Of a stretch of 64,000 bases of DNA, positions 7,122-24,100 are shown one piece after another; within the stretch, counting starts at the first letter, position 1, and every line of letters starts with the position of its first letter. Location of the stretch: contig NZ_JACHEF010000007.1 in NCBI RefSeq assembly GCF_014207355.1, positions 186,001 through 250,000 of the forward strand, given 5' to 3'. This DNA is from Mesorhizobium sangaii (GTDB lineage: Bacteria > Pseudomonadota > Alphaproteobacteria > Rhizobiales > Rhizobiaceae). Below the pieces are notes generated by a model, which saw only the letters and a program-made list of their open reading frames with translations, ran no database searches and was not told where the DNA came from. Made by a program: the position numbers and the translations under genes.

Positions 7122-7247
7122 GGCCTGTTATCCCCGTGATGCTGCATTGTCGGCAGTGGCAGGCCAGCAAGATGCTGTTGATTGGCCATTGCGCACAAGC
7201 CCCGTGGCAGTATGTCCAGCAGTCACTTGCAGCGTAAAAGTCCGACC

Positions 7248-7874
7248 ATGATCCTGATTGGCCAATTTGACTCCCCCTTCGTTCGCCGCGTCGGCATTGC
7301 GATGACCTTATACGGCATCGCCTACGAGCACCGTCCGTGGTCGGCCTTCGGCGATGCAGACAAGATCCGGCCCTACAACCCGCTGACGCGGGTGCCGACC
7401 CTGGTGCTGGACAATGGCGAGGTGCTGATCGAAAGCCATTTGATGCTCGACTATCTCGACAGCCTCGTTCCGGCCGAGCGGAGGATGTTTCCGACGGCCG
7501 AACCGGCGCGTCACCAGGCGCTGCGGATATCAGCCCTGGCAACCGGCCTCGGCGACAAGGCGGTCAGCCTGTTCTACGAGACGCGGCTGCACGAGAAAGT
7601 CTCCGACCTCTGGGCCGGGCGCTGCCGCACACAGATCGAGGCTGTCCTTGCAGTCCTGGAAGCCGATCGTCAGGGAAGGTCGACACCTTACTGGTTCGGC
7701 GACCGCATCGGCCATGCCGACATCGCGGTTGGTGCCGTGCTCCGCTTCATTGGCGAGGCGCATCCCGGGCTTGTGCCGCTGGCCGACCTCCCGGCGCTGG
7801 ACGCACATGCCGCACGAATGGAAGCGCTACCGGTCTTTCAGAAAGTCATGCAGCCATTCATCGCGCCGGCCTGA
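7248..7874 (+). CDS. Glutathione S-transferase family protein
   Basis: A 208-residue GST-like protein. The N-terminal thioredoxin-like domain starts MILIGQFDSPFVRRVGIA, with a Ser in the active-site turn, and the glutathione-contact motif shows as VLIESHLMLDYLD. The C-terminal all-helical domain includes DRIGHADIAVGAVLRF, the conserved N-capping box. The ATG at 7248 is preferred because the fold begins there; an upstream ATG at 7182 would add an unrelated Ser/Lys-rich leader. The substrate is unknown. Confidence 0.88.
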   Translation: MILIGQFDSPFVRRVGIAMTLYGIAYEHRPWSAFGDADKIRPYNPLTRVPTLVLDNGEVLIESHLMLDYLDSLVPAERRMFPTAEPARHQALRISALATGLGDKAVSLFYETRLHEKVSDLWAGRCRTQIEAVLAVLEADRQGRSTPYWFGDRIGHADIAVGAVLRFIGEAHPGLVPLADLPALDAHAARMEALPVFQKVMQPFIAPA

Positions 7875-7912: not shown

Positions 7913-8977
7913 CTAGTGCAGCACCAGCATATCGCTCGACGAGAACGAAATCTGGGCCTTTTCGCCGACAGCAGGCGGCGGTGTGGCAGGGCTGTTGAAC
8001 GTATCGAGCGACACGGTGTTACCGCCGATGCCGACGCGAACCCGGATCACCGAGCCGAGGAAATGCACTTCGGAGATCTCGCCGGAAAGACTGGAGTCGC
8101 GACCGGGCTGAAGGCCCAGCGAAATGGCTTCCGGACGCAGGGCAAGCGACAGCGTGTCGCCGGACTTCGAGCCGTTGAGCTTGCCCTTGAGCGAGACTTC
8201 CTGCGTGTCGACCTGCACCTTGCCGGATGCAGCATCGGTGACCCTGCCTTCGAGCACGTTCAGCGTACCGACGAAATTGGCGACGAACTTGGTTGCCGGA
8301 CGGTTGTAGATCTCGAACGGCGTGCCGACCTGTTCGGCCTTGCCGCCATACATGACGGCGATGCGGTCCGAGATCGACAGCGCCTCTTCCTGGTCATGTG
8401 TGACGAAGATGGTGGTGATGCCGAGCTTCTTCTGGATCGAGCGGATTTCCTCGCGCAGCGACACGCGCACCTTGGCGTCGAGCGCCGAAAGGGGTTCGTC
8501 CAGCAGCAGCAGCTTCGGTTTCGGCGCGATGGCGCGGGCCAGCGCAATGCGCTGCTGCTGGCCGCCCGAGAGCTGGTAGGGATAGCGATCCGCCATTTGC
8601 GGCAGTTTGATGATGCCGAGCATCTCGGCGACACGCGCATCGATGTCCGCCCTGGGCATACCGGCAACCTTCAGGCCGAAGCCTATGTTCTGCGCCACGG
8701 TCAGGTTCGGGAAGAGTGCGTAGGCCTGGAACACCATGCCGACATTGCGCTGGTTGGGCTTCAGCCTGGTAATGTCCTTGCCACCGACGACGATCTTGCC
8801 GGCTGTCGGCTCCTCGAAGCCCGCCACCATGCGCAGCACGGTGGTCTTGCCGCAGCCGGACGGACCGAGGAACGAGACGAATTCGCCGCGCTCGACGTCG
8901 AGATTGAAATCCTCCACCACCGTGGTGGCACCGAAGGATTTTCGCACGTGCTGGATGGAGAGGAACGGGTCGGCCAT
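7913..8977 (-). CDS. ABC transporter ATP-binding protein (PotA/FbpC type)
   Basis: A 354-residue ATPase. Walker A is GPSGCGKT at 38-45, the Q-loop is at Gln84, the signature LSGGQ is at 136-140, Walker B is LLLLDEP at about 156-162 and the switch His is His194. A C-terminal TOBE domain follows from about residue 240, as in importers for polyamines, iron or phosphonates. It is the last gene of a four-gene minus-strand operon after the binding protein and two permeases, and powers uptake. The gap after its stop is only 38 bases, facing the GST gene. Confidence 0.95.
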   Translation of the reverse strand: MADPFLSIQHVRKSFGATTVVEDFNLDVERGEFVSFLGPSGCGKTTVLRMVAGFEEPTAGKIVVGGKDITRLKPNQRNVGMVFQAYALFPNLTVAQNIGFGLKVAGMPRADIDARVAEMLGIIKLPQMADRYPYQLSGGQQQRIALARAIAPKPKLLLLDEPLSALDAKVRVSLREEIRSIQKKLGITTIFVTHDQEEALSISDRIAVMYGGKAEQVGTPFEIYNRPATKFVANFVGTLNVLEGRVTDAASGKVQVDTQEVSLKGKLNGSKSGDTLSLALRPEAISLGLQPGRDSSLSGEISEVHFLGSVIRVRVGIGGNTVSLDTFNSPATPPPAVGEKAQISFSSSDMLVLH

Positions 8978-9007
8978 GGTGTTGTTCTTTCGATCAGTAC
9001 TTTTCGA

Positions 9008-9799
9008 TCAATTGGGGCGGTTCGCCGATCTCGGCGCGAAGCGGGACAGGATCTGGATCAGCGACATGCAGCCCCAGGTGATGGCAAAGGCGATGATGGC
9101 AAGGGCTGCCGGCTCATACGCGCGGTTGGCGCCAATGTTCTGTAGATACGGGCCGAAAGCGGGTCGGTTGAGCAGGCTGGCCATGGTGAACTCGCCAATA
9201 ACGATCGCGAAGGTCAGGAACGCGCCCGACAACACCGCGATCAGCACATTGGGCAGGATAACGCGCGTGATGATCGTCGACCAGCCGGCGCCAAGGATCT
9301 GCGCCGCCTCCGTCAGCGTTCGCACATCGATGGTTCTGAGCCCGGTGTCGACCGCACGGTACATATAGGGCAGCGACAGCGTGGCATAGCCGATCACCAG
9401 CAGGGCGTTCGTACCGGTGTCGCTGGCCAGGAACGGCAGCGGCGAGTTCGATCCGTACATCCTGATATAGCCGAAGACGATGACGATGGCCGGAATGACC
9501 AGCGGCAACAGCGTGATGAACTCGACGAGCGGCCGCAGTTGCGGCAGGCGCAGCCGGATCCAGTAGGCGGCCGGCACTACGATCAGCACGCCGAGAATGA
9601 TGGTGAAGACGGCGGCAAGCACTGAATAGCCGAAGGTCGCCTGGAAGCGAGGATCGCCCAACACCACCTTGTAGGCGTCAAAGGAGTACGCGCCACGCCG
9701 CATGCGCATGGAAAACTCCACCGTCGCGATCAGCGGGATGAAGAAATAGGCCGCGCCCAGCGCGAAGACGACCCAGGCCCAGAACTTTCCCGACTTCAT
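9008..9799 (-). CDS. ABC transporter permease (second, PotC-like)
   Basis: A 263-residue inner-membrane protein with six likely segments. The EAA loop that docks on the ATPase is visible as LTEAAQILGAGWSTIITRVILPN. The start ATG at 9799 overlaps the stop of the upstream permease by four bases (ATGA), a sign of translational coupling. Together with the partner permease it forms the heterodimeric channel of the importer. Confidence 0.94.
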   Translation of the reverse strand: MKSGKFWAWVVFALGAAYFFIPLIATVEFSMRMRRGAYSFDAYKVVLGDPRFQATFGYSVLAAVFTIILGVLIVVPAAYWIRLRLPQLRPLVEFITLLPLVIPAIVIVFGYIRMYGSNSPLPFLASDTGTNALLVIGYATLSLPYMYRAVDTGLRTIDVRTLTEAAQILGAGWSTIITRVILPNVLIAVLSGAFLTFAIVIGEFTMASLLNRPAFGPYLQNIGANRAYEPAALAIIAFAITWGCMSLIQILSRFAPRSANRPN

Positions 9800-10710
9800 T
9801 TCAGCCACCTCTCGGAACGGGTCCGGAACCAGATGTAGAAGACATTGGCAAGGCCGGTGATGAAGATCATGCCGAAGGCGATCGCGTAGCCAAGATGGGC
9901 ATTGTGCAGCACGTCGCCGCGAATCTGCGCATAGAGCAGGATCGGCACGATGTTGAGTGACGAGCCTGTCAGCGCATAGGCGGTGGCGATGGCGCCGAAG
10001 GCGTTGGCGAACAGCAGGATGACCGTGCCAAGGAAACTTGGCCAGATCACCGGAATGACCACCATGCGCCAGTATTGCGCCATGGTTGCACCGAGTGTCG
10101 CGGCGGCCTCGCCCCACTCCTTCTTCAAGCCGTCGATTGCCGGCACGATGATCACCACCATCAGCGGGATCTGGAAGTAGACATAGGTCAGCGTCAGCCC
10201 CCAGAAAGACAGGATGTTGAAGCCGTGAGCGTAAATGTTGAGGCCGAAAAAGGTGTTCAGGATCACCGTGGCAAGGCCAAGCCGGCCGAGCGTGGCGATA
10301 AAGGCGAAGGCCAGCGGGACACCGGCGAAATTGGAAGCGACACCGGAGAAGGTCAACGTCGCCGAGCGTATCCATTCCGGCAGACCGCCGCGCACGATGG
10401 CGATGGCAATGGCGAGACCGGCGAAGGCACCAATCAACGATGAGGCAAGGCTGACCTTGATCGAGATCCAGTAGGCGGCAACGATCGACGGCTGCGCCAG
10501 TGCTGCGATATTTTCGAAGGTGAACTCACCCGCATCATTCTGGAAAGCGCCCAGCATCAGATAGAGCGTGGGCAGGATCAGGAACATGATGGCGAAGATG
10601 AAGAAGGGGGCAACGCCGAACCACTGCGTCGGCAGCCTCATGCTGCGTGCCTCGGCGGGAGGCGCGGTCTTCCCGGTGACAGCGTGGTCTGACATTGGGA
10701 TATCGGTCAT
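9796..10710 (-). CDS. ABC transporter permease (first, PotB-like)
   Basis: A permease of about 304 residues with six main membrane segments and the EAA-type loop EWGEAAATLGATMAQYWRMVVIPVIWP. The start is uncertain: ATG at 10710 (MTDIPMSDHAV) or at 10695 (MSDHAV); neither has a strong ribosome site. TM1 (WFGVAPFFIFAIMFLILP) starts some 25 residues in. It lies 65 bases after the binding-protein gene and overlaps the next permease by four bases. Confidence 0.92.
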   Translation of the reverse strand: MTDIPMSDHAVTGKTAPPAEARSMRLPTQWFGVAPFFIFAIMFLILPTLYLMLGAFQNDAGEFTFENIAALAQPSIVAAYWISIKVSLASSLIGAFAGLAIAIAIVRGGLPEWIRSATLTFSGVASNFAGVPLAFAFIATLGRLGLATVILNTFFGLNIYAHGFNILSFWGLTLTYVYFQIPLMVVIIVPAIDGLKKEWGEAAATLGATMAQYWRMVVIPVIWPSFLGTVILLFANAFGAIATAYALTGSSLNIVPILLYAQIRGDVLHNAHLGYAIAFGMIFITGLANVFYIWFRTRSERWLK

Positions 10711-10775
10711 GCGCCGGCTACCGTCTTCGAGAAAAGGGGACCGGGCGACCTCGAGGCCGCCCGGCATGGCGTTTG

Positions 10776-11882
10776 TTACTTGACGTTGGCGCCGACGACC
10801 GCATCCCAGTTCTTGGTGATGGCTTCCTTGGACTTGGCCTGCTCGTCCAGCGTCGGGAACACCGCCGCGGCATAGGATTCGGCCGGCGGCAGCTTAGCCA
10901 GCACGTCCGCGGGGATCTTGCCGTTCTTGGCAAGGTCGTTGAAGCGGATCGGGTGGCAATAGCCCTTGAGCCAGCCGACCTGGCCTTCGTCGGAGTAGAG
11001 GTATTCCAGCCACAGCTTGGCGGCGTTCGGATGCGGCGCGTAAGCGCTGATCGCCTGCACGTAGACACCGGCGACGACACCGGTCTTCGGCACGACGACG
11101 TCGACGGGCGGGTTGCCCTTCAGCGTGTCCCGGCCGGCGAGCGCGTTGTAGTCCCAGGTGATCAGGATCGGAGTCTGGCCTTGGGCGAGGGTCGCAGCCT
11201 TGCCGATGACCGGGACGAAATTGCCGGCGGCGTTCAGCTTCTTGAAGAAGTCGAGGCCAGCGGTGCCGGCGGCTTCACCAGCAGCGGCGCCCGACGACAG
11301 GCCAGCAGCATAGACGCCCTGGATAGCCTGGTTCGACGCGCGCGGATCGCCGGCCAGTGCGACAGTGTTGGCGAATTCCGGCTTTAGCAGATCGGCCCAG
11401 TCAGTTGGAGCTTCCTTGACGATGTCCTTGTTCACTTGGAAGGACAGCACGCCGTAATAGTCGCCAGTCCAGTAGCCTTCAGCATCCTTGGCGCTGTCGG
11501 GGATCGAGTCCCAGGTCGACACCTTGTAAGGCTGGATCAGACCATCCTTCTTGGCGGACGGGCCGAAGGACAGGCCGACGTCGATGACGTCAGGCGCCTG
11601 TGGGCCCTTGTTGTCCTTGTTGGCCTTGATTGCCTCGACCTCGTCGCCGGAGCCGGCATCGGGGTTGAGCTCGTTGATGGTGATTTCCGGATACTTCGCC
11701 TTGAAGCCGGCGATGACGTCACCGTAGCCGCACCAGTCATGTGGCAAGGCGATGGTGGTGAGCTGGCCTTCGGCCTTGGCGGCCTTGACGAGATCGTCCA
11801 GCGAAGCCGCGGACGAAATCACCGACGACACCATCAGGGTCGCGGCCGAAAGGGAAAGTACTTTCCCCGTGAATTTGAACAT
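10776..11882 (-). CDS. ABC transporter periplasmic substrate-binding protein
   Basis: A 368-residue exported protein. A Sec signal runs from MFKFTGKVLSLSAATLMVSS to a cut near ISSAASLDD. The mature part is of the extracellular solute-binding family 1/6 type (polyamine, Fe3+, 2-aminoethylphosphonate), with LVKAAKAEGQLTTIALPHDWCGYGDVIAGF and a late SAYAPHPNAAKLWLEYLYS block. The ATG at 11882 has GGAGAG upstream; a frame reaching 11939 adds Arg-rich residues before the signal. It is the first gene of the importer operon. The ligand is not readable, though the neighbouring amine-type cassette makes an amine plausible. Confidence 0.93.
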   Translation of the reverse strand: MFKFTGKVLSLSAATLMVSSVISSAASLDDLVKAAKAEGQLTTIALPHDWCGYGDVIAGFKAKYPEITINELNPDAGSGDEVEAIKANKDNKGPQAPDVIDVGLSFGPSAKKDGLIQPYKVSTWDSIPDSAKDAEGYWTGDYYGVLSFQVNKDIVKEAPTDWADLLKPEFANTVALAGDPRASNQAIQGVYAAGLSSGAAAGEAAGTAGLDFFKKLNAAGNFVPVIGKAATLAQGQTPILITWDYNALAGRDTLKGNPPVDVVVPKTGVVAGVYVQAISAYAPHPNAAKLWLEYLYSDEGQVGWLKGYCHPIRFNDLAKNGKIPADVLAKLPPAESYAAAVFPTLDEQAKSKEAITKNWDAVVGANVK

Positions 11883-12015
11883 GTGTTCTCTCCGTTGAAC
11901 TGACGCCGTTGGACGCCTGCGATCCGGTATCGTTTTCATGTGACAGCCAGATGAAAGCTTTGTGAAACCGGCTGCTCGCAGCGCGAAAATTTAACTCTTT
12001 TTAACCGGCTGTAGC

Positions 12016-12124: not shown

Positions 12125-13297
12125 TTACACCGTGCCGGCGATAGCGTTTTCAAGCAAGGTCAGGGCCGCCTTCTTGGTCAGCTTGACCGGGTTGCCGCCT
12201 GCGGTCGGATCGACCACCGCCATGTCGGCGATGAGCCCCTTGCGCTTCTTGTCCATGTCGAGCCCCTTGATCAGGCCCGGCAGAGCATGCGGCACCTTGA
12301 GTTCCCTGCGCAATTTAATGATCGCCTTGGCGAAGCCGTCGAAGCCGCCCTTGATGCCGCAATAGGCGGCAAGCCGGCCGATGCGCTCCTCGATGGAGTC
12401 CCTGTTGAAGGCCAGCACATAGGGCATGAACACCGCATTGGTCATGCCGTGATGGGTGTCGTACAGCGCGCCGACCGGATGCGACAATGAGTGGATGGCG
12501 CCCAGCCCCTTCTGGAAGGCGGTGGCGCCCATCGCGGCGGCGCTCATCATATGGGCGCGCGCGACGAGATCCTTGCCGTTGGCATAGGCCTTCGGCAGGT
12601 TCTCGAAGACCAGCCGGACGCCTTCGACGGCGATGCCGTCGGCCATCGGATGGTAACCCGGCGCGCAATAGGCCTCGAGGCAGTGGGCAAGCGCGTCCAT
12701 GCCGGTGCCGGCGGTGATGAAGCCGGGCATGCCGACCGACAGTTCCGGATCGGCAATGACGATGGCCGGCAGCAATTTGGGATGGAAGATGACCTTCTTG
12801 GTGTGCGTCGCTTCATTGGTGATGACGCCGGCGCGGCCGACTTCCGAACCGGTGCCGGCCGTGGTCGGCACCGCGATGATCGGCGCGATCGCGTCGGAAT
12901 TGGCGCGCGTCCACCAGTCGTCGACATCCTCGAAGTCCCAAACTGGCCGCGTCTGGCCGGCCTGGAAGGCGATCAGCTTGCCGAGATCGAGCGCCGAGCC
13001 GCCGCCGAAGGCGATGACGCCGTCATGCTTGCCTTTCTTGAACACCGCGATGCCGGCGGTCAGATTGGACTCGACCGGGTTCGGCCTCACCTCGGAAAAG
13101 ACGCCGTAGGGGACCTTGGCATCGTCGAGGATCTTCAGGGTCGAGGCAACGACCGGCAGTTTCGCCAGGCCGGGATCGGTGACGAACAGCGGCCGCTTGA
13201 TGCCGGTGGCCGCCAACACCTCAGGCAGTTCCTTGATGCGCCCGGCGCCGAAGCGAACGGTGGTGGGGTAGTTCCATTTGGAGATCAGCTTGGACAT
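12125..13297 (-). CDS. Iron-containing alcohol dehydrogenase
   Basis: A 390-residue group III alcohol dehydrogenase. The NAD-binding GGGS is at 98-101, and the metal ligands can be placed as Asp201, His205, His269 and His283, with the same spacing as in the FucO/AdhB family. It oxidises a primary alcohol to an aldehyde or does the reverse. It follows the aldehyde dehydrogenase gene by only 18 bases, so the two likely act in sequence. In the context of the GS-like ligase, the substrate may be a gamma-glutamyl amino alcohol (inference). Confidence 0.94.
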   Translation of the reverse strand: MSKLISKWNYPTTVRFGAGRIKELPEVLAATGIKRPLFVTDPGLAKLPVVASTLKILDDAKVPYGVFSEVRPNPVESNLTAGIAVFKKGKHDGVIAFGGGSALDLGKLIAFQAGQTRPVWDFEDVDDWWTRANSDAIAPIIAVPTTAGTGSEVGRAGVITNEATHTKKVIFHPKLLPAIVIADPELSVGMPGFITAGTGMDALAHCLEAYCAPGYHPMADGIAVEGVRLVFENLPKAYANGKDLVARAHMMSAAAMGATAFQKGLGAIHSLSHPVGALYDTHHGMTNAVFMPYVLAFNRDSIEERIGRLAAYCGIKGGFDGFAKAIIKLRRELKVPHALPGLIKGLDMDKKRKGLIADMAVVDPTAGGNPVKLTKKAALTLLENAIAGTV

Positions 13298-13315
13298 TTT
13301 TTGTCTTTCGAAAAT

Positions 13316-14704
13316 TCAGATGGCTTCGCGCAGGTGGAACGACTTCGGCCTGGTCAGGTTGTCATAGCCGATGGCCGACAAGGCAGCACCCTTGCCGGTG
13401 TCCTTGACGCCGGTCCAGACCAGGGCCGGATCGAGGTAGTCGCAGCGGTTCATGAACACCGTGCCGGTCTCGACGCGGTTGCCGATCGCCACGGCATGGT
13501 CCGTATCGCGGGTCCAGATCGAAGCGGTCAGCCCGTAAGGGCTGTCGTTCATCAGCGCGATCGCCTCTTCGTCGTTGCGCACCTTCATGATGCCGACGAT
13601 CGGCCCAAAGCTCTCCTCGCGCATGACGCTCATCTGATGGTCGACTTGCGTCAGCACTTCCGGCGCCAGATAGGGCGAGCCGGCCTTGTCATTGGCCACC
13701 TTCATGTTGATGTGCGCCACCGCGCCCTTGCGCAGCGCTTCGGCCTTCTGCTCGCGGATCAGGTCGGCGAAACGCGCCTGCGCCATCGGCCCCATCGTCG
13801 TTGCCTGGTCGAGCGGATTGCCGACGACATAGTTCTTGGTCTCGGCGATGAAGCCCTCGACGAACTCGTCATAGACCTTTTCGTGCACATAGACGCGCTC
13901 GATGCCGCAGCAGCACTGGCCGGAATTGTAAAAGGTGCCGTCAACCAGATTGGCGACCGCATGATCCATCTTGGCGTCGGGCAGCACATAGGCCGGATCC
14001 TTGCCGCCAAGCTCGAGGCCGAGCGTCATGAAGGTCCCCGCCGCCGCCTTTTCGATGGCGCGGCCACCGCCGACCGAACCGGTGAAGTTGACGTGGTCGA
14101 TCTTGCCCGAACCGAGCAGCTTCTCGGTCTGGGCATGGTTGAGCACGACGTTCTGGAACACGCCCTTGGGCAGGCCCACTCTGTCGAAAGCCTGTTGGAA
14201 ACGCTCGCCAACCAGCAGCGTCTGCGCCGCATGCTTGAGGATGACGGCGTTGCCGGCCATCAGCGCCGGCACGATGGTGTTGACCGCCGTGAGATAGGGA
14301 TAGTTCCACGGCGCGATCACCATGACCACGCCAAGCGGGTCCTTTTTCACATAGCGACGGAAGCCGTCCTTTGGGTTGGAAGCCGGCACGGCCTTGAGCG
14401 CCACCTCGGCGATCTCGACCATGTAGTTGGTGCGTTCCTTGACGCCGCCGAACTCGCCGCCATAGCGCACCGGACGCCCCATCTGCCAGGCGATCTCCGG
14501 CACGATCTCGTCGGTCATCGCGACCAGCGCTTCCAGCATCGCCAGCATGTACTTGCCGCGCTCGACGATCGGCGTCTCGGCCCACCTCTCTTGCGCCGCC
14601 TTGGCGCGCTCGACCGCGGCATTGATCGCCTGGTCCGTTGCCACGGGCCGCTCGGCGTAGATCGAGCCATCGATGGGGGATTTGAGTTTGACCGTCTCGG
14701 TCAT
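13316..14704 (-). CDS. Aldehyde dehydrogenase family protein
   Basis: A 462-residue NAD(P)-dependent aldehyde dehydrogenase. The cofactor strand FTGS is at 207-210, the general base Glu231 lies in LELGG and the nucleophile Cys265 in SGQCCCG. Three cysteines in a row at 264-266 are unusual but leave the GQxC pattern intact. It oxidises an aldehyde to the acid, probably the product of the downstream ADH. The ribosome site is weak, and 173 bases carrying a repeat element lie between it and the ligase gene. Confidence 0.94.
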   Translation of the reverse strand: MTETVKLKSPIDGSIYAERPVATDQAINAAVERAKAAQERWAETPIVERGKYMLAMLEALVAMTDEIVPEIAWQMGRPVRYGGEFGGVKERTNYMVEIAEVALKAVPASNPKDGFRRYVKKDPLGVVMVIAPWNYPYLTAVNTIVPALMAGNAVILKHAAQTLLVGERFQQAFDRVGLPKGVFQNVVLNHAQTEKLLGSGKIDHVNFTGSVGGGRAIEKAAAGTFMTLGLELGGKDPAYVLPDAKMDHAVANLVDGTFYNSGQCCCGIERVYVHEKVYDEFVEGFIAETKNYVVGNPLDQATTMGPMAQARFADLIREQKAEALRKGAVAHINMKVANDKAGSPYLAPEVLTQVDHQMSVMREESFGPIVGIMKVRNDEEAIALMNDSPYGLTASIWTRDTDHAVAIGNRVETGTVFMNRCDYLDPALVWTGVKDTGKGAALSAIGYDNLTRPKSFHLREAI

Positions 14705-14740
14705 TTTGTAAGTCCTCGCATTCTACAACAAAATCTTGTG

Positions 14741-14860
14741 GCGTGGCGCTGCCCTCATCCGCCTGCCCGGCAGTCTCCCGCGTATGGTGACCGGGAGAAG
14801 GGAAGTGCTCTCCGGTCGCCCTGCCCGCGATTCACGGGAGGGTAGGGCGAGAGGCGCGCC
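14741..14860. repeat. Palindromic intergenic repeat, family C
   Basis: A hairpin-rich stretch with arms TCTCCCG (14774-14780) and CGGGAGA (14792-14798), flanked by CCCTCATCCGCCTGCC and a G-rich right side. The pattern matches a large palindromic repeat that I recall as frequent in Mesorhizobium. It lies inside the operon between the ligase and ALDH genes and could stop part of the transcript. Confidence 0.6.
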
Positions 14861-14877
14861 AACGTTCGTCGGCTAGT

Positions 14878-16248
14878 TTAGTACCGCTCGAACCCTCTGT
14901 GCAGTTCCCAATCGGTTATGCGGCGGTCGTATTCGAACTGCTCCCACTTTGCGGTGTGAACATAGTGTTCGAGCACATCCTCGCCGAGCGCCTGCTTGAG
15001 CATCTTCGACTTCGCCAGCGTCTCGGTGGCGTCGCGCAGCGTCTTCGGGATCTCCGGCAAACGCGACGCCTGATAGGCATCGCCGACGAACGGCTTCTGC
15101 AGTTCCAGCTTCTCATCGATGCCGGCAAGGCCGGCGGCGATCAGCGCCGCAAAGGCGAGATAGGGGTTGAGGTCCGCGCCGCCGATGCGGCATTCCATGC
15201 GGATGCCCTTGGTGCCTTCACCGCACAGGCGGAAGCCGGCGGTGCGGTTGTCTTCGCTCCACATGATCTTGGTCGGCGCGAAGGTGCCGGCCTGGAAGCG
15301 CTTGTAGGAGTTGATGTAGGGCGCCAGGAACCAGGTGAATTCCTTGGCGTATTTCAGCTGTCCCGCCGCCCATTGCTGGCCAAGCGCCGACAGCGTCCAG
15401 TCAGCCTTCTTGTCGAAGAAGAGCGGCGTCTTGCCGTCGGCGCTCCACAGCGAATTGTGGATATGGCTGGAATTGCCGGCCAGCCCATAATTGTACTTGG
15501 ACATGAAGGAAATCGCCTTGCCTTCGGACTCGGCAATCTCCTTGGCGCCGTTCTTCAAGATGACGTGGCGGTCGGCCATGTCCAGCGCCTCGGCATAGCG
15601 CACATTGATCTCTTCCTGGCCTGGGCCCCACTCGCCCTTGGAATTCTCGATCGGGATGCCGGCCGCTTCCATCTCGTTGCGAAGCCGGCGCATGACGCCT
15701 TCTTCCTTCGTGGTGATGCCGATCTGGTAATCGCCGATATAGGGCGAGGCGGTATCGAGACCCTGCCAGTGTTTCTTGCGGGCGGAATCATAGGTCTCGT
15801 TGAACAGATAGAATTCGAGCTCGGAAGCGAAATAGCCGATATAGCCGCGCTCCGTCAGCCGCTTGACCTGCTTCTTCAGGATGGCGCGCGGCGAATGCGG
15901 CAGGTCGTCATGCGTGTGGTGGTCGAGCACGTCGCAGATCACCAGCGCCGTCTTCTCAAGCCACGGAATGCGCCGCAGCGTCCCCAGATCCGGCTTCATG
16001 ACGAAATCGCCATAGCCCTTCGACCAGCTCGCCGCCTTGTAGCCGGGCACCGGCTCCATATCGATGTCGGCGGCCAGGAGATAGTTGCAGCCGTGCGTCT
16101 CGTCATGCGCGGAATCGACGAAATACTGCGCCAGGAACCGTTTTCCCGCCAGCCGCCCCTGCATGTCGACGATGCAGGCCAGCACCGTGTCGATCTCGCC
16201 ACTGGAGACCGCTTTCTTCAACTGATCGAACGAGAAATTTCCGGCCAT
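14878..16248 (-). CDS. Glutamine-synthetase-like gamma-glutamyl-amine ligase
   Basis: A 456-residue protein of the glutamine synthetase fold. ATP and metal residues are visible: Glu143/Glu145 in SELEF, Glu212 in GPGQEE, His262/His264 in NSSHIH, then Arg335, Arg340, Arg350, Glu352 and Arg354. Length and motif wording fit the catabolic GS-like group (PuuA, GlnA3/GlnA4, IpuC), which join glutamate to amines, rather than housekeeping GlnA, which has a Tyr-adenylylation loop not seen here. The ATG at 16248 is chosen because the fold begins there. It lies 88 bases after the permease gene in an amine-catabolism-like operon. The amine is not known. Confidence 0.85.
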   Translation of the reverse strand: MAGNFSFDQLKKAVSSGEIDTVLACIVDMQGRLAGKRFLAQYFVDSAHDETHGCNYLLAADIDMEPVPGYKAASWSKGYGDFVMKPDLGTLRRIPWLEKTALVICDVLDHHTHDDLPHSPRAILKKQVKRLTERGYIGYFASELEFYLFNETYDSARKKHWQGLDTASPYIGDYQIGITTKEEGVMRRLRNEMEAAGIPIENSKGEWGPGQEEINVRYAEALDMADRHVILKNGAKEIAESEGKAISFMSKYNYGLAGNSSHIHNSLWSADGKTPLFFDKKADWTLSALGQQWAAGQLKYAKEFTWFLAPYINSYKRFQAGTFAPTKIMWSEDNRTAGFRLCGEGTKGIRMECRIGGADLNPYLAFAALIAAGLAGIDEKLELQKPFVGDAYQASRLPEIPKTLRDATETLAKSKMLKQALGEDVLEHYVHTAKWEQFEYDRRITDWELHRGFERY

Positions 16249-16336
16249 TCCTTTGGCACTCCAGCGTTTTAGCTTTGAACAGGTTAGACAAAACCATGGC
16301 CGGCACGATGCCGGCCATGGCCAAGAATGGTCGATG

Positions 16337-17893
16337 TCAGTGACCGGTTTCGCCGACGGCCTGTTCCGCCGCCTTGATGGCTGCCTGGCGCGCCGCGATG
16401 ATGTCGCCAAGCGGCGGACCCTGGAAGCGGTTCCGTTCGAACGCGAACCAGACGATCGCCGTCAGGATGAAGAAGCCGACGGTGATGTAGAGCGCCCAAT
16501 CGTTCGGCGGCTGGATGCCGATGACGAAGATCAGGATCATCGACACGATCGACAGGAAGGCGAACAGCATGAAAACGCCGCGCCCCATGTTCCATGGACC
16601 CATCTTGTCCCACTTTGGCGTGCCCCAGGCCAGCATGCCGAGCACGATCGGCACGGTGAAGGACAGGAACAGGAAGATGACGGTGCAAGACACGACGATG
16701 GTGTAGGCCGAGGTGCCGGCGACCGAGACCAGCGTCGAACCCCAGACGAACAGCACCGACAGGATCGACGCCGTCCAGATCGCCGCCACCGGCGTGCGAT
16801 AGGTCGGGCTGACTTTGGCGAGTGCCGATGAGCCCGGCAGGCCACCGTCACGCGAGAAGGCGAAGATCATACGCGAGGCAGAGGTCACGGTTGCGAGGCC
16901 GCACAGAAGCTGCGCGACGAACACGACGAGGTACACGAACTCCTTGATGCCAGGGCTGACGCGCTGGTCGAAGGCCCAGAAGAACACGTTCCAGCCCTGC
17001 TTGGCGGCGTCGTCCATGTTTGGGATCATCAGCACGAAGGCGGCCAGGAACAGATAGCCGAAGACGGCCGACCAGATCACCGACATGACCATGGCGCGCG
17101 GCACCGAGGAGGCTGCCTTGATGGTTTCCTCGGAGGTGTGCGCGGAAGCGTCGTAGCCGGTGATCGTATAGATCGGCAGCAACAGGCCAAGTGCGAACAC
17201 CCAGGCATTCGAAACCGACGGCCAGACGCTGGCGCCGGCATCGCCGGAGTAGTTGTGGAAGGTGAACAGCCGGCTGAAATCCCAGGTCTCGGCGGAGAGA
17301 AGACAGACGACCGCGATCAGGATCGAACCGAAGAAGATCAAATAACCCGAGAAGTCGGTCAGCTTCGCCGTCAGCTTTATGCCGAGATGATTGATCAGTG
17401 CCTGGGCGCCGGTGATGATGACCAGGAAGATCATCTGGTTGGTCAGCGTACCCTCGATGCCGAGCGCCGGGCCGAAGGCGCCGACGAAGAACGTCCAGGT
17501 GCCGACATTGATGGCGCCGAGCACGGTGATCAGGCCGAGCAGGTTGAGCCAGGCCGTGACCCAGCCGGTGCCGCGGTTGCCGAGGATCGAACCCCAGTGA
17601 TAGAGGCCGCCGGCAGTCGGATAGGCCGAACTGATCTGCGACATGGCGACCGCGAAGGTCAGCGACACGAAGCAGCCGACCAGCCAGCCGATGCCGATGC
17701 CGATGCCGCCGGCGCCGGAGGTTGCCTGGGCCAGCGAATTGATGCCGCCCGAAAGGATGCAGATGATCGAGAAAGAAACGGCGAAATTCGAAAAGCGGCT
17801 GAGGCGCCGCTCCAGTTCCTGGGCATAACCCATGCTGTGGAGGGCCTTTACGTCCTCCGCCTTGTCAACTTCAGTATAACCCGGTGCTGCCAT
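16337..17893 (-). CDS. APC-family amino acid/amine permease
   Basis: A 518-residue carrier with about 12 membrane segments. The N-terminus ELERRLSRFSNFAVSFSIICILSGG is the signature of the amino acid/choline (ACT) branch of the APC superfamily, which includes GABA and choline-type permeases. The ATG at 17893 has AGGGGAC upstream; the longer frame to 18073 would overlap the preceding gene. It starts 20 bases after the amidohydrolase gene. It probably imports the amine or amino compound used by the ligase downstream. Confidence 0.92.
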   Translation of the reverse strand: MAAPGYTEVDKAEDVKALHSMGYAQELERRLSRFSNFAVSFSIICILSGGINSLAQATSGAGGIGIGIGWLVGCFVSLTFAVAMSQISSAYPTAGGLYHWGSILGNRGTGWVTAWLNLLGLITVLGAINVGTWTFFVGAFGPALGIEGTLTNQMIFLVIITGAQALINHLGIKLTAKLTDFSGYLIFFGSILIAVVCLLSAETWDFSRLFTFHNYSGDAGASVWPSVSNAWVFALGLLLPIYTITGYDASAHTSEETIKAASSVPRAMVMSVIWSAVFGYLFLAAFVLMIPNMDDAAKQGWNVFFWAFDQRVSPGIKEFVYLVVFVAQLLCGLATVTSASRMIFAFSRDGGLPGSSALAKVSPTYRTPVAAIWTASILSVLFVWGSTLVSVAGTSAYTIVVSCTVIFLFLSFTVPIVLGMLAWGTPKWDKMGPWNMGRGVFMLFAFLSIVSMILIFVIGIQPPNDWALYITVGFFILTAIVWFAFERNRFQGPPLGDIIAARQAAIKAAEQAVGETGH

Positions 17894-17913
17894 TGGAAGT
17901 CCCCTGTTGGTTC

Positions 17914-18732
17914 TTAGCTGGCCGATTGAACTGACTTTCCGACTGAATGCGATCTGGCGTGTCCGGCCTCCTGTGGCTCCAGATCCGAAAAAATGCCCGT
18001 GAGCAGATCCGCCCATTTCCGCTGCCCGGTCTCGCCGGCTATTTCGTCGTTGCGGATTTCGATCATCGCGCACGGCAGGCCGCGCGAACGTGCGTGCCGC
18101 TCCAGCGTGAAATAGACGCGGTCGGCCGGCGAATAGGGCTCGTTGACGCCGACGGTGACGCCGGCAAGCCGCTTCAGCGCGTCGATCAAAGGCGACGCCA
18201 GCCGGCGGTCCTCGTCATGGATGATGCCGATATGCCAGGGCCGGTTGCGGCCCTTGTAGACAGGCGTGAAGGAATGCACGGAAACCAGGCGGGTTTCCTG
18301 CCCGCGCGCCAGCCTGCCGTCGACAATCTCTTCGATGGCGGCATGAAACGGCTGCCACGACAGCGCGACACGGGCCGCGCGCTGCTTGTCCGAAAGGCCG
18401 GTATTGCCGGGTATCGCCGTGGTCTCGCTGACCGGCGGCACCAAATCGGGCGCATCGAGCGGCCGGTTACAGTCGATGACGAGGCGCGAAATGCGGGTTT
18501 CGACCAGCGTCGCGTCGAGCGCCTCGGCCATGCGACGGGCAACCGGCAGCGCACCGGGATCCCAGGCGATGTGGCGGGACAAGTCCTCTGCGGCAAGGCC
18601 GAGCGTGCCGAATTCGGCCGGCAGGAAATTCGAGGCGTGATCACAGGTCAGCACGAAAGGGCTTGATCCGCCGGGGTTGGTCACCCTGACGGTATCAGAC
18701 GATGCAAGGCTGGCGGGCCGTGCTTGCTCCAT
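17914..18732 (-). CDS. N-formylglutamate amidohydrolase family protein
   Basis: A 272-residue hydrolase of the N-formylglutamate deformylase family (PF05013). Visible blocks are LTCDHASNFLP (metal-binding His/Asp), HIAWDPGA, SRLVIDCNRP, LVSVHSFTPVYKG and MIEIRNDEI. Classic members finish histidine breakdown, but no hut genes are near. Here it heads an operon with an APC carrier, a GS-like ligase, ALDH and ADH, so it may instead release glutamate from a gamma-glutamyl amide (inference). It is divergent from the RpiR gene across 234 bases. Confidence 0.9.
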   Translation of the reverse strand: MEQARPASLASSDTVRVTNPGGSSPFVLTCDHASNFLPAEFGTLGLAAEDLSRHIAWDPGALPVARRMAEALDATLVETRISRLVIDCNRPLDAPDLVPPVSETTAIPGNTGLSDKQRAARVALSWQPFHAAIEEIVDGRLARGQETRLVSVHSFTPVYKGRNRPWHIGIIHDEDRRLASPLIDALKRLAGVTVGVNEPYSPADRVYFTLERHARSRGLPCAMIEIRNDEIAGETGQRKWADLLTGIFSDLEPQEAGHARSHSVGKSVQSAS

Positions 18733-18966
18733 AGTCTGCCGTCCCCGGGGAGCGCTGTATCGTATGTTACGTATTTTGTCTCATTGCGTCCCTATGGATG
18801 ATTTCATACAGTTTACCCGGTTTTGTCAAATGCGATTTCGGAAAAGACAGTGGACAGGGCCGAAGCATTTTGCAGCCAGGTGGAATCACCTGGCGTCGCG
18901 GAAATGCGGCCAAGACAAACAGACGGATCGGGATGGATTACCATTCGGCTCCGGGGTGGGGAAAAG
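18733..18966. promoter_or_regulatory. Divergent control region, amine operon and RpiR gene
   Basis: The 234 bases between the divergent amidohydrolase and RpiR genes must hold the promoters of both. An AT-richer patch at about 18757-18825, including a TATGTTACGTATTTTGTCTC stretch, is the best place for an operator, but no clear palindrome is readable. RpiR regulators normally bind next to their own gene. Confidence 0.4.
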
Positions 18967-19791
18967 ATGATTTCCAGCATTGCCGAACTGATCGCCGACC
19001 GCGTCGGCACGATGCCGGCCAGTGAAAGGCGCGCAGCCCAGACTCTGATCGCCAGCTATCCGATGATCGGCCTCAAGACGGTTGCTGAATTCTCGGCCGC
19101 GGCAGGCGTCTCTTCGCCGACGATCCTGCGCTTCGTGGCCCGGCTCGGCTTCCAGAATTACCCCGAATTCCAGTCGAGCCTGCAGGACGAACTGGCGGCG
19201 CAGCTGCAATCGCCGGCGATAAGGACGCTCAACCCGCCCTCGCCCGGCGGCACCGCGTCACCGATGCTGGAAGCGACGCTCGACAATATGCGCGAGACGT
19301 TCAGACACCTGTCCGACAAGCAGCTTGCCGACATCGCCGCCCGCCTCGCCGACCGGCGCGGCAAGACCTTCCTGATCGGCGGCCGCTTCACCGATCCGCT
19401 GGCGCGTTACATGGCCGCCCACCTCGCCATCATCCAGCCCGAGGTCTTTCACCTCGCCGGCCAGGAAAGCATGTGGCGCGACCGGCTGATCGACATGGGC
19501 AAGCGCGACGTACTGGTGATCTTCGACATCAGGCGCTACCAGGACAGCCTCCTCCGCTTCGCCGAGAAGGCACATGAGCGCGGCGTACAGATCGTGCTGT
19601 TCACCGACCAGTGGCTGTCGCCGATCGCCCGCTTTGCCCGCCACGTCATTGCCGGACGAACCGCGGTGCCGTCGGCGTGGGACTCTTCGGCAGCCCTCTT
19701 CGTCGTCGCCGAAACACTGATCGGCGCCGTCACACGGCAACTGGAAGCAGAAGGCGCCAAACGCATCCGCGAGATGGAAGGTCTGCGTTAG
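18967..19791 (+). CDS. RpiR/MurR-family transcriptional regulator
   Basis: A 274-residue regulator. The N-terminal HTH_6 domain covers about residues 1-77, with the recognition region KTVAEFSAAAGVSSPTILRF. A SIS-type sugar-phosphate-binding domain follows at about 110-250 (KTFLIGGRFTDPLARYMAAHL and DVLVIFDIRRYQ). The ATG at 18967, behind GGGGAAAAG, matches the usual family start; a TTG at 18823 would add 48 residues without family character. The divergent position over the amine operon makes that operon the likely target. The SIS ligand is unknown. Confidence 0.9.
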   Translation: MISSIAELIADRVGTMPASERRAAQTLIASYPMIGLKTVAEFSAAAGVSSPTILRFVARLGFQNYPEFQSSLQDELAAQLQSPAIRTLNPPSPGGTASPMLEATLDNMRETFRHLSDKQLADIAARLADRRGKTFLIGGRFTDPLARYMAAHLAIIQPEVFHLAGQESMWRDRLIDMGKRDVLVIFDIRRYQDSLLRFAEKAHERGVQIVLFTDQWLSPIARFARHVIAGRTAVPSAWDSSAALFVVAETLIGAVTRQLEAEGAKRIREMEGLR

Positions 19792-19950
19792 CCGTCAACG
19801 TTACGCAGATTTAATGTGCGCAGACACTGGCCAGTTGTCATAAGGGCGCGATATCGGGGGTGTCTTCTTGCCTTAGAATAGCCTCGCTGCGTCTGCTTCC
19901 TTTCGGGAACCCGGTAGACGGAAGGATCGTTTTGCCCAACCGGAGTGCAG

Positions 19951-21114
19951 ATGGCCGCCTGGAAACAGATACTTTTCGCGCTTGTGGTGCTGGTCGTGGC
20001 GGCAGCCGCCTGGCTGCGCTTTTTTCCGGGCGCACCGGAGGTGCTGGCACGCTGGGGGATAGACTGGGTTTACGCGGCAACGCCCCCGGCTGAAACCGGT
20101 GCCGCCAACGCCAAGCAGGCAAACGACGGCAATGGCGGCAACCGGCGGGTGAACGTGGTCGCCCTGGCCGCCACTTCGGCCACCATCAACGACCGCCTTC
20201 AGGCGATCGGCACTGGCCGTGCCAACGCCTCGGTGACCGTCAATCCATACAGTTCCGGCCGCCTTGCCAAACTGCTGGTCGAATCCGGCAGCCATGTCGA
20301 CAAGGGACAGATTATTGCCACCCTCGATTCCGAGACCGAGGTGATCGCGCAGGATCGTGCCAAGCTGGTCTTACAGGACTCGCAGAACAAGCTCGACCGG
20401 GTGAAATCGCTGCGGGCCTCCAACGCAGCGACACCGGTCGCCGTCGCCGATGCCGAAGTGGTGCTGGCGGTCGCCAAACTGGTACTTCGCGATGCCGAAC
20501 TTGCCCTGCAGCGGCGCTCCATCATCGCACCGATCGCCGGCACCGTCGGCATCCTGCCGATCGCCGCCGGCAATTATGTGACCAACCAGTCGGCGATCGC
20601 CACGCTCGACGACCGCTCCAGTATCCTTGTCGATTTCCTCGTGCCCGAACGTTTCGCAGCCGCCGTCAAGGTCGGCGCGCAATTGACGGCGACGCCGATC
20701 GCCAATCCCAGCAAAGCCTACACCGGCACGGTTTCGGCCATCGACAACCACATCGACGAAAAGAGCCGCACTTTGCTGGTCAAGGCCAAGATCGCCAACC
20801 CGGCCGATTCGCTGCGCGCCGGCATGTCGTTCGGCATCATCATGAAGTTCCCCGGCGAGACCTATCCGGCCGTCAGCCCGCTGGCGATCCTCTGGGGGTC
20901 GGACGGCGCCTATGTCTGGCGGGTCGAGGACAGCAAGGCCAGGCGGGTCCCGGTGCGCATCATCCAGCGCAACACCGAGACCGTGCTGATCGACGCGGAG
21001 ATCGACAGCGGCGACATGGTGGTGACCGAAGGCACGCAGAGCGTCAGCGAGGGCGGCGCCGTGCGCATCGCCGGCGAAGACCAGCGCGCCGCGGACGCCG
21101 CCCAAGGCTCATGA
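19951..21114 (+). CDS. RND efflux periplasmic adaptor (MFP) subunit
   Basis: A 387-residue HlyD/AcrA-type adaptor. One N-terminal membrane anchor (KQILFALVVLVVAAAAW) replaces the lipobox seen in AcrA. The lipoyl half-motifs LLVESGSHVDKGQIIATLD and IIAPIAGTVGILP flank a helical hairpin, then a beta-barrel domain. ATG 19951 is preferred over GTG 19945 because CGGAG lies 6 bases upstream. The stop overlaps the start of the pump gene by four bases. It should connect the inner-membrane pump to an outer-membrane channel that is not encoded in this window. Confidence 0.92.
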   Translation: MAAWKQILFALVVLVVAAAAWLRFFPGAPEVLARWGIDWVYAATPPAETGAANAKQANDGNGGNRRVNVVALAATSATINDRLQAIGTGRANASVTVNPYSSGRLAKLLVESGSHVDKGQIIATLDSETEVIAQDRAKLVLQDSQNKLDRVKSLRASNAATPVAVADAEVVLAVAKLVLRDAELALQRRSIIAPIAGTVGILPIAAGNYVTNQSAIATLDDRSSILVDFLVPERFAAAVKVGAQLTATPIANPSKAYTGTVSAIDNHIDEKSRTLLVKAKIANPADSLRAGMSFGIIMKFPGETYPAVSPLAILWGSDGAYVWRVEDSKARRVPVRIIQRNTETVLIDAEIDSGDMVVTEGTQSVSEGGAVRIAGEDQRAADAAQGS

Positions 21115-24100
21115 CCAGCCCCGTCAACACTGCCAGCGACACCGGCTTTACCGCCCTGTTCATCCGTAGGCCAGTGATGGCTTTCGTGCTGAACACACTG
21201 ATCGCAGTCGCCGGCCTGGCTGCCATCTATGGCGTCGAGATCCGCGAACTGCCCGACGTCGACCGTGCGGTCGTCACGGTCTCGACCGCCTTCGAAGGCG
21301 CCGCGGCCGAAACCGTCGACCGTGAACTGACCGACACAGTCGAGGGCGCTGTCGCCCGCGTCTCCGGCGTCAAGTCGATCTCGTCGTCTTCTTCCTTCGG
21401 TTCGAGCCGCGTCACCATCGAGTTCAACGACGGAGTCGACCTCAACGTCGCCGCCTCGGACGTGCGCGATGCCGTCGGCCGTGTCGCCAACTTGATGCCG
21501 GACACCGCCGATCCACCGCGCATCGTCAAGGCCGACGCCAATTCCGATCCGGTGATGCGACTGGCGGTGACTTCGGACGACATGTCGATCCGGGACATGA
21601 CGGTGGTGGTCCAGGATCAGATCGAGGACGAACTGGCCGCCGTGCCCGGCGTTGCCGACGTCCAGATCTATGGCTATCGCGACAAGATTTTCCGCATCGA
21701 CGTCGACCAGAACAAGCTCGCCAGCCTCGGCTTCACCGTTGCCGACCTCAGGGCGGCGCTTGCTTCTGTCGCTTTCGATTCACCGGCCGGCTCGATCACC
21801 ACGACAAACCAGGACCTGATCGTCCGCACCACGGCCGACGTGACCACGCCCGAGGAATTCGAAAACATCATCATCGGCGGCACGACGCGCATCCGCGACG
21901 TCGCCACCGTTACGCTCGGCCCCGATGTCGGCCAGACCACGCTGCGTTCGGATGGTAAGACCGGCATCGGCATCGGCATCATCCGCCAGGCGGAATCGAA
22001 CACGCTGGACATCTCGACAGGCGTTCAGGCCGCCGTCGCCAAGCTGCAGGAGAACCTGCCCAAGGGTATGTCGATCAAGATCACCAGCGACGACGCGGTG
22101 TTCGTCAACGGCGCGGTGCACGAGGTCGAGATCGCACTCGGCCTGTCCGTCACCATGGTGCTGATCGTCATCTATGTGTTTCTGCTTGACTGGCGCGCAA
22201 CGCTGATCCCGGGACTGTCGATGCCTGTTGCCATGATCGGCACCATCGCCGCGATCTACCTGGCCGGCTTCTCGGTCAACATCCTGACCCTGCTCGCTTT
22301 GGTGCTGGCGACGGGATTGGTCGTCGACGACGCCATCGTCGTGCTCGAAAACATCGTCCGACGACGCAATGAAGGCATGGGCCCGCGCGCCGCAGCCGTG
22401 CTTGGCGCCCAGGAAGTGTTCTTCGCCGTCATTGCCACGACGCTGACGCTGGTCGCCGTCTTCGTGCCGATCTCGTTCCTGCCCGGCCAGACCGGTGGCC
22501 TGTTCCGCGAATTCGGCTTCGTGCTCGCCATGTCGGTGCTTTTGTCCTGCGTGGTGGCGCTGACGCTGTGCCCTATGCTCGCCTCGCGCATGCTGTCGAG
22601 TGCCTCGCTCCACCATGAAGGCGGCCACGGCATCGGCGCCCTCGTCGGCGGCGCGCTGAATTCAGCCTACAAACGCGCCCTGCACGCTTGCCTCGACGCG
22701 CCATGGATCGTGCTTCTGGTTGCGGTGCTGTTTGCCGGCACCGCTTTCGCGCTGTTCGGCACCATCCGCCAGGAACTGACGCCGACCGAGGACCGCGCCG
22801 CCGTGTTGTTGCGCATCAGCGCCCCGCAAGGTGTCAGCCTCGACTACACCACGCAGCAGATGCAGAAGATCGAGAGGCTGATCCAGCCGATGCGCGAGTC
22901 CGGCGAGATCCGCAGCACCTTCGAGAACGCCGGCCAGAACGGCTCCTATAATTCAGGCTTCATGGTGATGACGCTGGCGCCGTGGAACGAGCGGAGCCGC
23001 AGCCAGCGGGAGATCATGGCCGAGATCAGCCAGTTGACCAGGCAGGTGCCGAGCGTGCGCATCTTCCCGGTGCAGCCCAACAGCCTCGGCATTCGCGGTG
23101 CCGGCAACGGCCTGCAGTTCGCGCTGGTCGGCAATAACCGCAAGGCACTCGGCGACGCGGCGGTCAAGATCATCGCCGAGATGCAGAAGGACCCACGCTT
23201 CCAGACACCTCGCCTGTCCATCGATCCGACGCAGCCGCAGCTGGCCGTGGCCATCGACCGCGAGCGCGCCTCCGATCTCGGCATCGACATCACCGGGATG
23301 GCCAACACCTTACAGGCCATGCTCGACGGCAACGACGTCGTCGACGTCTACATCGCCGACCGCAGCTACGGCGTGAAGCTGGTCTCGACCACCAACCCCA
23401 TCAACGATCCGACCGACCTGGAAAACATCTTCCTGAAGATATCAGACGGCCGCTTCGTGCCGATGTCGACCATCGCCACGCTGACCGAGCGTGCGGTGCC
23501 GCCGTCACTGTCGCGCGAGCAGCAGCAGCCGTCGGTGGCGATCACTTCCAACCTCAACGGCGACTTCGCGCTCGGCGATGCGCTGACCCGCGCCGAGGAA
23601 ATCGCCACGCCGCTTTTGCCTGCGGGCAGCCGCATCCTGCCGTTGGCCGAGGCCGCGACGTTGGGCGAGACCAACAGCGCCATGGTGACCATCTTCGGCT
23701 TCGCGCTGGTCATCATCCTGCTGGTGCTGGCAGCCCAGTTCGAGAGCTTCGTCAGCGCCGTCATCATCATGGCGACGGTGCCGCTCGGCCTAGCTTGCGC
23801 CATCTTCGCGCTGCTGCTCTCGGGCACCAGTCTCAACGCCTACAGCCAGATCGGCCTGGTGCTGCTGGTGGGGGTCATGGCCAAGAACGGCATCCTGATC
23901 GTCGAATTCGCCAACCAGCTGCGCGATCGCGGGCTTGGCGTGCGTGAAGCGATCGAGCAGGCCTCGATCATCCGCGTACGGCCGGTGATGATGACCATGA
24001 TCTGCACCGTGCTCGGTGGCTTGCCGCTGGTGCTGGCGAGCGGCGCTGGTGCCGAGGCACGCGTAGCGCTCGGCTGGGTGATCGTCGGCGGACTGGGCCT

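Follow-up and report, generated by a model that had tools for sequence, protein, structure and literature searches.

A candidate gamma-glutamylation operon for ethanolamine catabolism in Mesorhizobium sangaii, with an importer slot of varying content

The window analysed here, a stretch of 64,000 nucleotides of Mesorhizobium sangaii (contig NZ_JACHEF010000007.1; C7:186001-250000 in our numbering), lies in a genome of 7.2 Mb whose nearest named relatives, judged by the ligase described below, belong to Mesorhizobium. An operon at 12125-19791 of the window encodes a hydrolase of family PF05013, an APC-superfamily permease, a ligase resembling glutamine synthetase (GS), an aldehyde dehydrogenase (ALDH) and an iron-type alcohol dehydrogenase (Fe-ADH), with a divergent RpiR regulator. 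Judged from sequence, it very probably serves RpiR-controlled catabolism of ethanolamine, a building block of membrane lipids, by gamma-glutamylation. The pathway, including its hydrolase family, is already published and the window provides a further member; new here is the pattern in the importer slot, for which the literature on importer swapping was not searched. Gene content and order, homology, residue patterns and the replacement of the importer by members of known ethanolamine-importer families were obtained directly.

In the proposed route, the permease would import ethanolamine and the ligase would couple it, at the expense of ATP, to glutamate at the gamma-carboxyl, giving gamma-glutamylethanolamide. 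The Fe-ADH would oxidise the alcohol to gamma-glutamylacetaldehyde and the ALDH would convert this to gamma-glutamylglycine, which the PF05013 hydrolase would split into glycine and glutamate, the latter being recycled. The glutamate cap would spare the cell a free toxic aldehyde, and no microcompartment would be needed. RpiR would control the operon. From the genes and their relatives we infer the substrate, the chemistry of every step in this organism and the induction by ethanolamine. The original prediction had proposed the same logic of import, capping with glutamate, two oxidations and hydrolysis for an amine or amino alcohol; it matches the ethanolamine route published for Chromohalobacter salexigens and Phaeobacter sp. 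MED193 and can be narrowed to ethanolamine.

In MED193, the described order is RpiR, gamma-glutamylglycine amidohydrolase, EtoV, EtoW, EtoX, ethanolamine gamma-glutamylase, ALDH and ADH; the operon proteins are up on phosphorylethanolamine, and EtoX binds ethanolamine with a Kd of 7.9 uM (PMC10132767). The enzymes of C. salexigens are tabulated as PF00120, PF00465, PF00171 and PF05013 in Table 2 of a review (PMC9397018). For Streptomyces coelicolor the ligase step of GlnA4 was shown in vitro and a member of the formylglutamate amidohydrolase family was proposed for the last step (PMC6529630). GlnA4 had thus been named correctly as an ethanolamine precedent (PMC6529630), whereas the use of this hydrolase family for the last step, thought to be new in the original prediction, had been proposed before (PMC6529630) and PF05013 listed for C. 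salexigens (PMC9397018). The consulted sections of these pathway papers contain no assay of the hydrolase step, nor any of a Mesorhizobium enzyme. The review and the Streptomyces work were the only relevant results when the literature was searched for a counterpart in Rhizobium or Agrobacterium.

All six genes are intact open reading frames (ORFs) and their proteins pass the curated Pfam cut-offs (PF00465/PF25137, PF00171, PF00120, PF13520, PF05013, HTH_6 and SIS), which bears out the gene content first proposed for 12125-19791. The four enzymes of the gamma-glutamylation pathway stand in a single cluster, next to the divergent regulator. The best NCBIfam match of the Fe-ADH reached 330.9 bits, under a cut-off of 500. 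Gaps of 20, 88, 173 and 18 bp separate the five minus-strand genes and are compatible with a single transcript. For RpiR, of which the ORF is open from 18823, the ATG at 18967 is the preferred start. A scan for sigma-70-type promoters gave no promoter-like site against 1.7 expected by chance, a result that says little here.

Table 1. Position and predicted role of the operon genes and of the linked ABC importer in the window.
Feature	Position	Strand	Predicted role and matches
Fe-ADH	12125-13297	−	Predicted gamma-glutamylethanolamide dehydrogenase; PF00465 167.8 bits, PF25137 139.2 bits
ALDH	13316-14704	−	Predicted to convert gamma-glutamylacetaldehyde to gamma-glutamylglycine; PF00171 397 bits
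GS-like ligase	14878-16248	−	Predicted gamma-glutamylethanolamide synthetase; PF00120
APC-superfamily permease (2A0304-like)	16337-17893	−	Predicted ethanolamine importer in swappable slot; PF13520 173.6 bits
PF05013 amidohydrolase	17914-18732	−	Predicted gamma-glutamylglycine hydrolase, last step; PF05013 168 bits
MurR/RpiR-family regulator, divergent	18967-19791	+	HTH_6 43.8 bits, SIS 64.9 bits; start inferred
ABC importer, linked	7913-11939	−	Substrate-binding protein 10776-11939; permease 9796-10767; second permease within ORF 9008-10375 (by eye); ATPase 7913-8977

The operon shares with the Eto operon of MED193 and C. salexigens the divergent RpiR, the hydrolase as first gene, then importer, ligase, ALDH and Fe-ADH, and the same four enzyme families; this likeness rests on described order and families, with sequences compared only via PDB chains. 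It differs in having a single APC permease where Eto has the three-gene TRAP transporter EtoVWX, and an ABC importer downstream. As the EtoVWX genes are not in the window operon, its enzymes were classed as Eto and its importer was not. Plasmid 1 of Paracoccus denitrificans PD1222 has the gene order of MED193, with identities to the window proteins of 55% (ligase), 60% (ALDH), 64% (ADH), 47% (hydrolase) and 39% (RpiR). The order RpiR/PF05013/permease/ligase/ALDH/Fe-ADH is also found on pSymB of Sinorhizobium meliloti (strain Ak57) and pSK03 of Rhizobium leguminosarum, where the genes are named only generically and a homologous ABC importer adjoins them across RpiR, pointing away. The GlnA4 pathway of S. 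coelicolor, likened here by description, has a GS-like gamma-glutamylethanolamide synthetase, two dehydrogenases and a proposed amidohydrolase, but its alcohol dehydrogenase is labelled short-chain, its regulator is EpuRI and S. coelicolor has no specific permease for it (PMC6529630).

The window ligase is 74% identical to PDB 11zs and 56% to PDB 5dm3, which we take to be the C. salexigens ligase, and sides with these rather than with the six other GS-like loci of its own genome, at 26-32% identity. On these low values a second ligase of the same subfamily in the genome was rejected. Ten catalytic positions, presumably the metal, ATP or glutamate binding sites of GlnA in Salmonella numbering, are kept in 70/70 ligase rows, the window included. 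The flap glutamate (E327-like position) is replaced by F in 68 of the 70 rows, among them the window, and by W in the other two; the ammonia-site loop, DGSS in the GlnA of the same genome, reads PGYK in the window and is DGSS in none of the 70 rows. With the catalytic positions kept and both ammonia-site loop and flap glutamate absent, the pattern is consistent with a ligase acting on some amine and not on ammonia. An AlphaFold2 model from 13 near-identical sequences had a mean pLDDT of 36.8 and was not used for a fold search.

The family names are generic and the best NCBIfam match of the ligase is GlnA (TIGR00653, 244.7 bits, below the cut-off of 429.15), as would be expected if the genes shared no pathway and the cluster combined an ammonia- or aromatic-amine-specific GS-like enzyme, unrelated dehydrogenases and an N-formylglutamate hydrolase of the histidine pathway. 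This is extremely improbable given the missing loop and flap glutamate, and given that PDB 4hpp, presumably PA5508, scores 77 bits against the window ligase where 11zs scores 804; the hydrolase scores and the linkage described below speak against it as well. GlnA identity itself was ruled out by the sub-threshold TIGR00653 score together with the PGYK loop and the F at the E327-like position.

Against the HutG model TIGR02017 (cut-off 278.75), the window hydrolase scored 28.1 bits while another protein of the genome, C1:431381, reached 339.2, and on this basis HutG N-formylglutamate deformylase was ruled out. Trees were made by quick searches with SH-aLRT support only, and the support values given are those of starred branches. 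In the hydrolase tree, the window protein groups with 29 operon hydrolases and PDB 2odf, apart from two HutG-like paralogues, and adjoins the hydrolase of L123, the closest sampled relative outside the genus (99). H32, H153 and E225 are kept in 31/31 hydrolase rows and also in three paralogues of the same genome, so these residues mark the family and not the substrate. PDB 2odf (Atu2144), deposited as a hypothetical protein without function, is 49% identical to the window hydrolase and groups with the operon-borne PF05013 hydrolases, at 98 with those of S. meliloti and R. leguminosarum. The grouping suggests a function for this structure.

Linkage was assessed in the best 80 of 311 ligase relatives, found in a scan of genome contigs and picked solely by ligase similarity (ligases 90-100% identical to the window's; 77 titled Mesorhizobium, three titled only bacterium, Rhizobiales or Hyphomicrobiales). 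Hydrolase, ALDH and ADH were each present in 80/80 loci and RpiR in 78/80, so the co-occurrence is more than chance. More widely, the ligase had matches in 40/385 genomes of the class at E<=1e-150 and in 43/398 genomes of the phylum at E<=1e-130. Beyond the 80 loci, 61 ligase neighbourhoods were compared, namely the window's own and 60 of the 67 places found outside the genus; named plasmids were also added. Neighbourhood genes were located by tblastn (greedy ORF calling had given the ligase in 48/61 loci). Near the ligase, ADH was found in 52 neighbourhoods, ALDH in 40 (46 by a looser count that takes in weak distant matches), PF05013 in 25, RpiR in 24 and all together in 23; the full operon is thus common around the ligase, yet not universal. 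TRAP genes were near the ligase in 20 neighbourhoods, an APC permease in nine, and neither in 32.

The case for ethanolamine as substrate comes from the gene that takes the place of the permease in relatives. The ligase tree places L123 as sister to the window (100), and L123 carries RpiR/hydrolase/DctQ-DctM-DctP/ligase/ALDH/ADH and the same ABC genes, with the TRAP transporter sitting in the APC slot. TRAP genes (DctP/DctQ/DctM) occupy the slot in the Mesorhizobium-like loci L043 and L092 too. Against PDB 4uab, the DctP of L123 scored 478 bits, that of M. tianshanense (L043) 493, that of P. denitrificans (L167) 567 and that of L162 640. 4UAB is Csal_0678 solved with ethanolamine (PMC12410723; also PMC4646407), and the next locus tag, Csal0679, is annotated as a putative glutamine synthetase (PMC5299690). 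In six other loci, with ligases 95-98% identical to the window's, the slot permease is 60-63% identical to a permease of L125 that resembles TIGR00908, the ethanolamine permease model (cut-off 381.75). The L125 protein scored 370 bits; two of the six, L041 and L087, were scored and gave 373 and 376. No EutB match was found in the M. sangaii genome, while the E. coli control was detected, and the Eut ammonia-lyase route was ruled out. The known ethanolamine importers in the slot and the lack of EutB together narrow the substrate to ethanolamine.

The same enzymology could act mainly on another short amino alcohol (L-alaninol, serinol, isopropanolamine or 3-aminopropanol) or on a mixture, with a product other than glycine. 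Importer classes do vary between loci, and a ligase that falls in the window's clade (8 rows, 95, on a long branch) is encoded on a Paraburkholderia symbiotic plasmid within a biosynthetic-looking cluster that has no ADH or ALDH. In Rhizobium sp. CB3171 (L171:3005-12334) the ligase is accompanied by ALDH, PF05013, a permease and an aminotransferase, with no Fe-ADH within 7 kb. Two unrelated ethanolamine importer families nevertheless share the slot beside nearly identical enzymes, and in M. loti DSM 2626 the ligase is 100% identical to the window's and the slot permease 48%, so that the importer differs and the first enzyme does not. We consider another main substrate improbable.

Two Paraburkholderia symbiotic plasmids have clusters of this kind (L166:877-8356 and L170:1877-9356; ligases about 63% identical to the window's), which contain a PhnW-like aminotransferase, an O-acetylhomoserine-sulfhydrylase-like enzyme, a desaturase-family protein, a gamma-Glu-GABA-hydrolase-family protein, a LysE exporter and a MetA-like acyltransferase. 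We take them to resemble the rhizobitoxine cluster, the amino alcohol of which is presumably serinol; by this analogy, the window's ligase clade may also act in biosynthesis, with an amino alcohol being capped there. The CB3171 cluster holds a dimethylformamidase-beta-like gene and is perhaps a version for another amine. On pAA03 of Aminobacter aminovorans (L165:1-15359), a transporterless RpiR/PF05013/ligase/ALDH/ADH operon is flanked by flavin-dependent oxidoreductase genes on one side and bhcRABC on the other. Glyoxylate and glycine feed the bhc cycle, and the position directly before bhcRABC would, in this one case, fit glycine as product.

The linked ABC importer has a substrate-binding protein that matches SBP_bac_6 (105.6 bits), with PDB 5t1p as its best PDB match (202 bits), and an ATPase that scores 439.2 bits against the PhnT2 model of 2-aminoethylphosphonate transport, close to the cut-off of 457.7. 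The gene for the binding protein stands beside the operon in 78/80 loci, and S. meliloti and R. leguminosarum have a homologous importer in another arrangement. It could be argued from this conserved, in Rhizobium and Sinorhizobium rearranged, neighbourhood and from the near match of the ATPase that the ABC importer brings in ethanolamine (or phospho- or glycerophosphoethanolamine), the APC permease moving glycine, glutamate or some other solute. In relatives, however, the permease slot is filled by TRAP and TIGR00908-like importers, and L123 and L043 retain the ABC genes yet carry TRAP in the slot. This division of labour therefore seems unlikely.

Several points weigh against ethanolamine catabolism as the function of the operon. 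Secondary sources are split on the C. salexigens route, given as demonstrated in one (PMC10132767) and as predicted in silico in another (PMC6529630). The window permease matches TIGR00907 at 212 bits, under the cut-off of 598.3, and gives no match to TIGR00908 at E<=0.001; it belongs to another subfamily, and its ethanolamine role rests on position. In the ligase, the D50-like position of the ammonia-site loop is still D in 15/70 rows, the window having P. A divergent second PF05013 protein of the genome (C6:46259-46876, 40% identical) sits on a long branch within the clade of the window hydrolase, so the operon may not be alone in supplying the hydrolase step; the gene of this paralogue lies outside any ligase cluster examined. 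Finally, PF05013 stands beside the ligase in only 25/61 neighbourhoods and neither dehydrogenase is nearby in 10/68 loci, so that ligase relatives at 50-65% identity need not all serve the pathway.

The content of the importer slot was compared across the 80 loci. It holds a permease at least 91% identical to the window's in 39, one at 63-66% in 25, one at 48-51% in eight, a TIGR00908-like permease in six and TRAP in two, which makes five discrete classes; no slot permease lies between 67 and 90% identity to the window's. The ligase, ALDH and ADH identities in the same loci, taken as an in-operon control, vary narrowly. Five of the 39 loci (L058, L059, L071, L076 and L081) carry two tandem permeases flanked by hydrolase and ligase, of which one shares about 48% and the other 95-97% identity with the window's permease. 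Percent identity to the latter defined the permease classes, which were checked by a tree with nine rows per class, in which each class is a single clade (100). The second Mesorhizobium class is more distant from the window's class than are the permeases of R. leguminosarum, S. meliloti and one non-alphaproteobacterial genome (95), which suggests that the classes predate the genus.

On a DNA tree of ALDH and ADH with 81 rows, six importer states (with the tandem pair scored separately) imply no fewer than 31 changes, where the minimum possible is 5 and the mean after shuffling 39.3; the tree is built from genes of the same operon, whose own recombination could inflate the count. The importer labels are clustered on this tree to the extent that 31 falls below 39.3. 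For the window's permease class alone, the starred branches force at least 16 changes, and on the ligase tree of 68 loci the fewest changes between TRAP and APC are 5. The ABC genes are banded too: the binding protein is about 76-78% identical in ten loci and 84-99% in the rest, and the permease has more than one band, so the importer slot is not alone in showing bands. The slot is read as a site of repeated importer exchange, perhaps by way of a second permease gained and the first lost. A stronger version, which we put forward tentatively and rate a little short of even, is that the five importer classes (TRAP, TIGR00908-like and three 2A0304-type clades that predate the genus) replaced each other many times by recombination across Mesorhizobium, partly via tandem two-permease intermediates, with the enzymes staying near-identical.

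Pfam matches elsewhere in the window comprise a GMC oxidoreductase (283-2019), a major facilitator superfamily transporter (2437-3654), an endonuclease/exonuclease/phosphatase-family protein (4567-5478), a Na/H exchanger (5571-7121) and a glutathione S-transferase (7182-7874). Beyond RpiR, 19945-24230 encodes a HlyD-type protein and, after it, a long ORF that is RND-like (21111-24230 was left out of the Pfam scan).

Near-identical enzymes beside five importer classes within one genus provide a natural experiment on transporters turning over faster than pathways. If the repeated replacement is true, the importer would be under a selection of its own (through affinity, toxic analogues, or a phage or bacteriocin that exploits it), different from that on the pathway. 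The analysis gives a predicted function to a generically annotated operon that is kept in the sampled Mesorhizobium relatives and carried by plasmids of S. meliloti and R. leguminosarum. Rhizobia may thereby feed on the ethanolamine of membrane phospholipids without a microcompartment.

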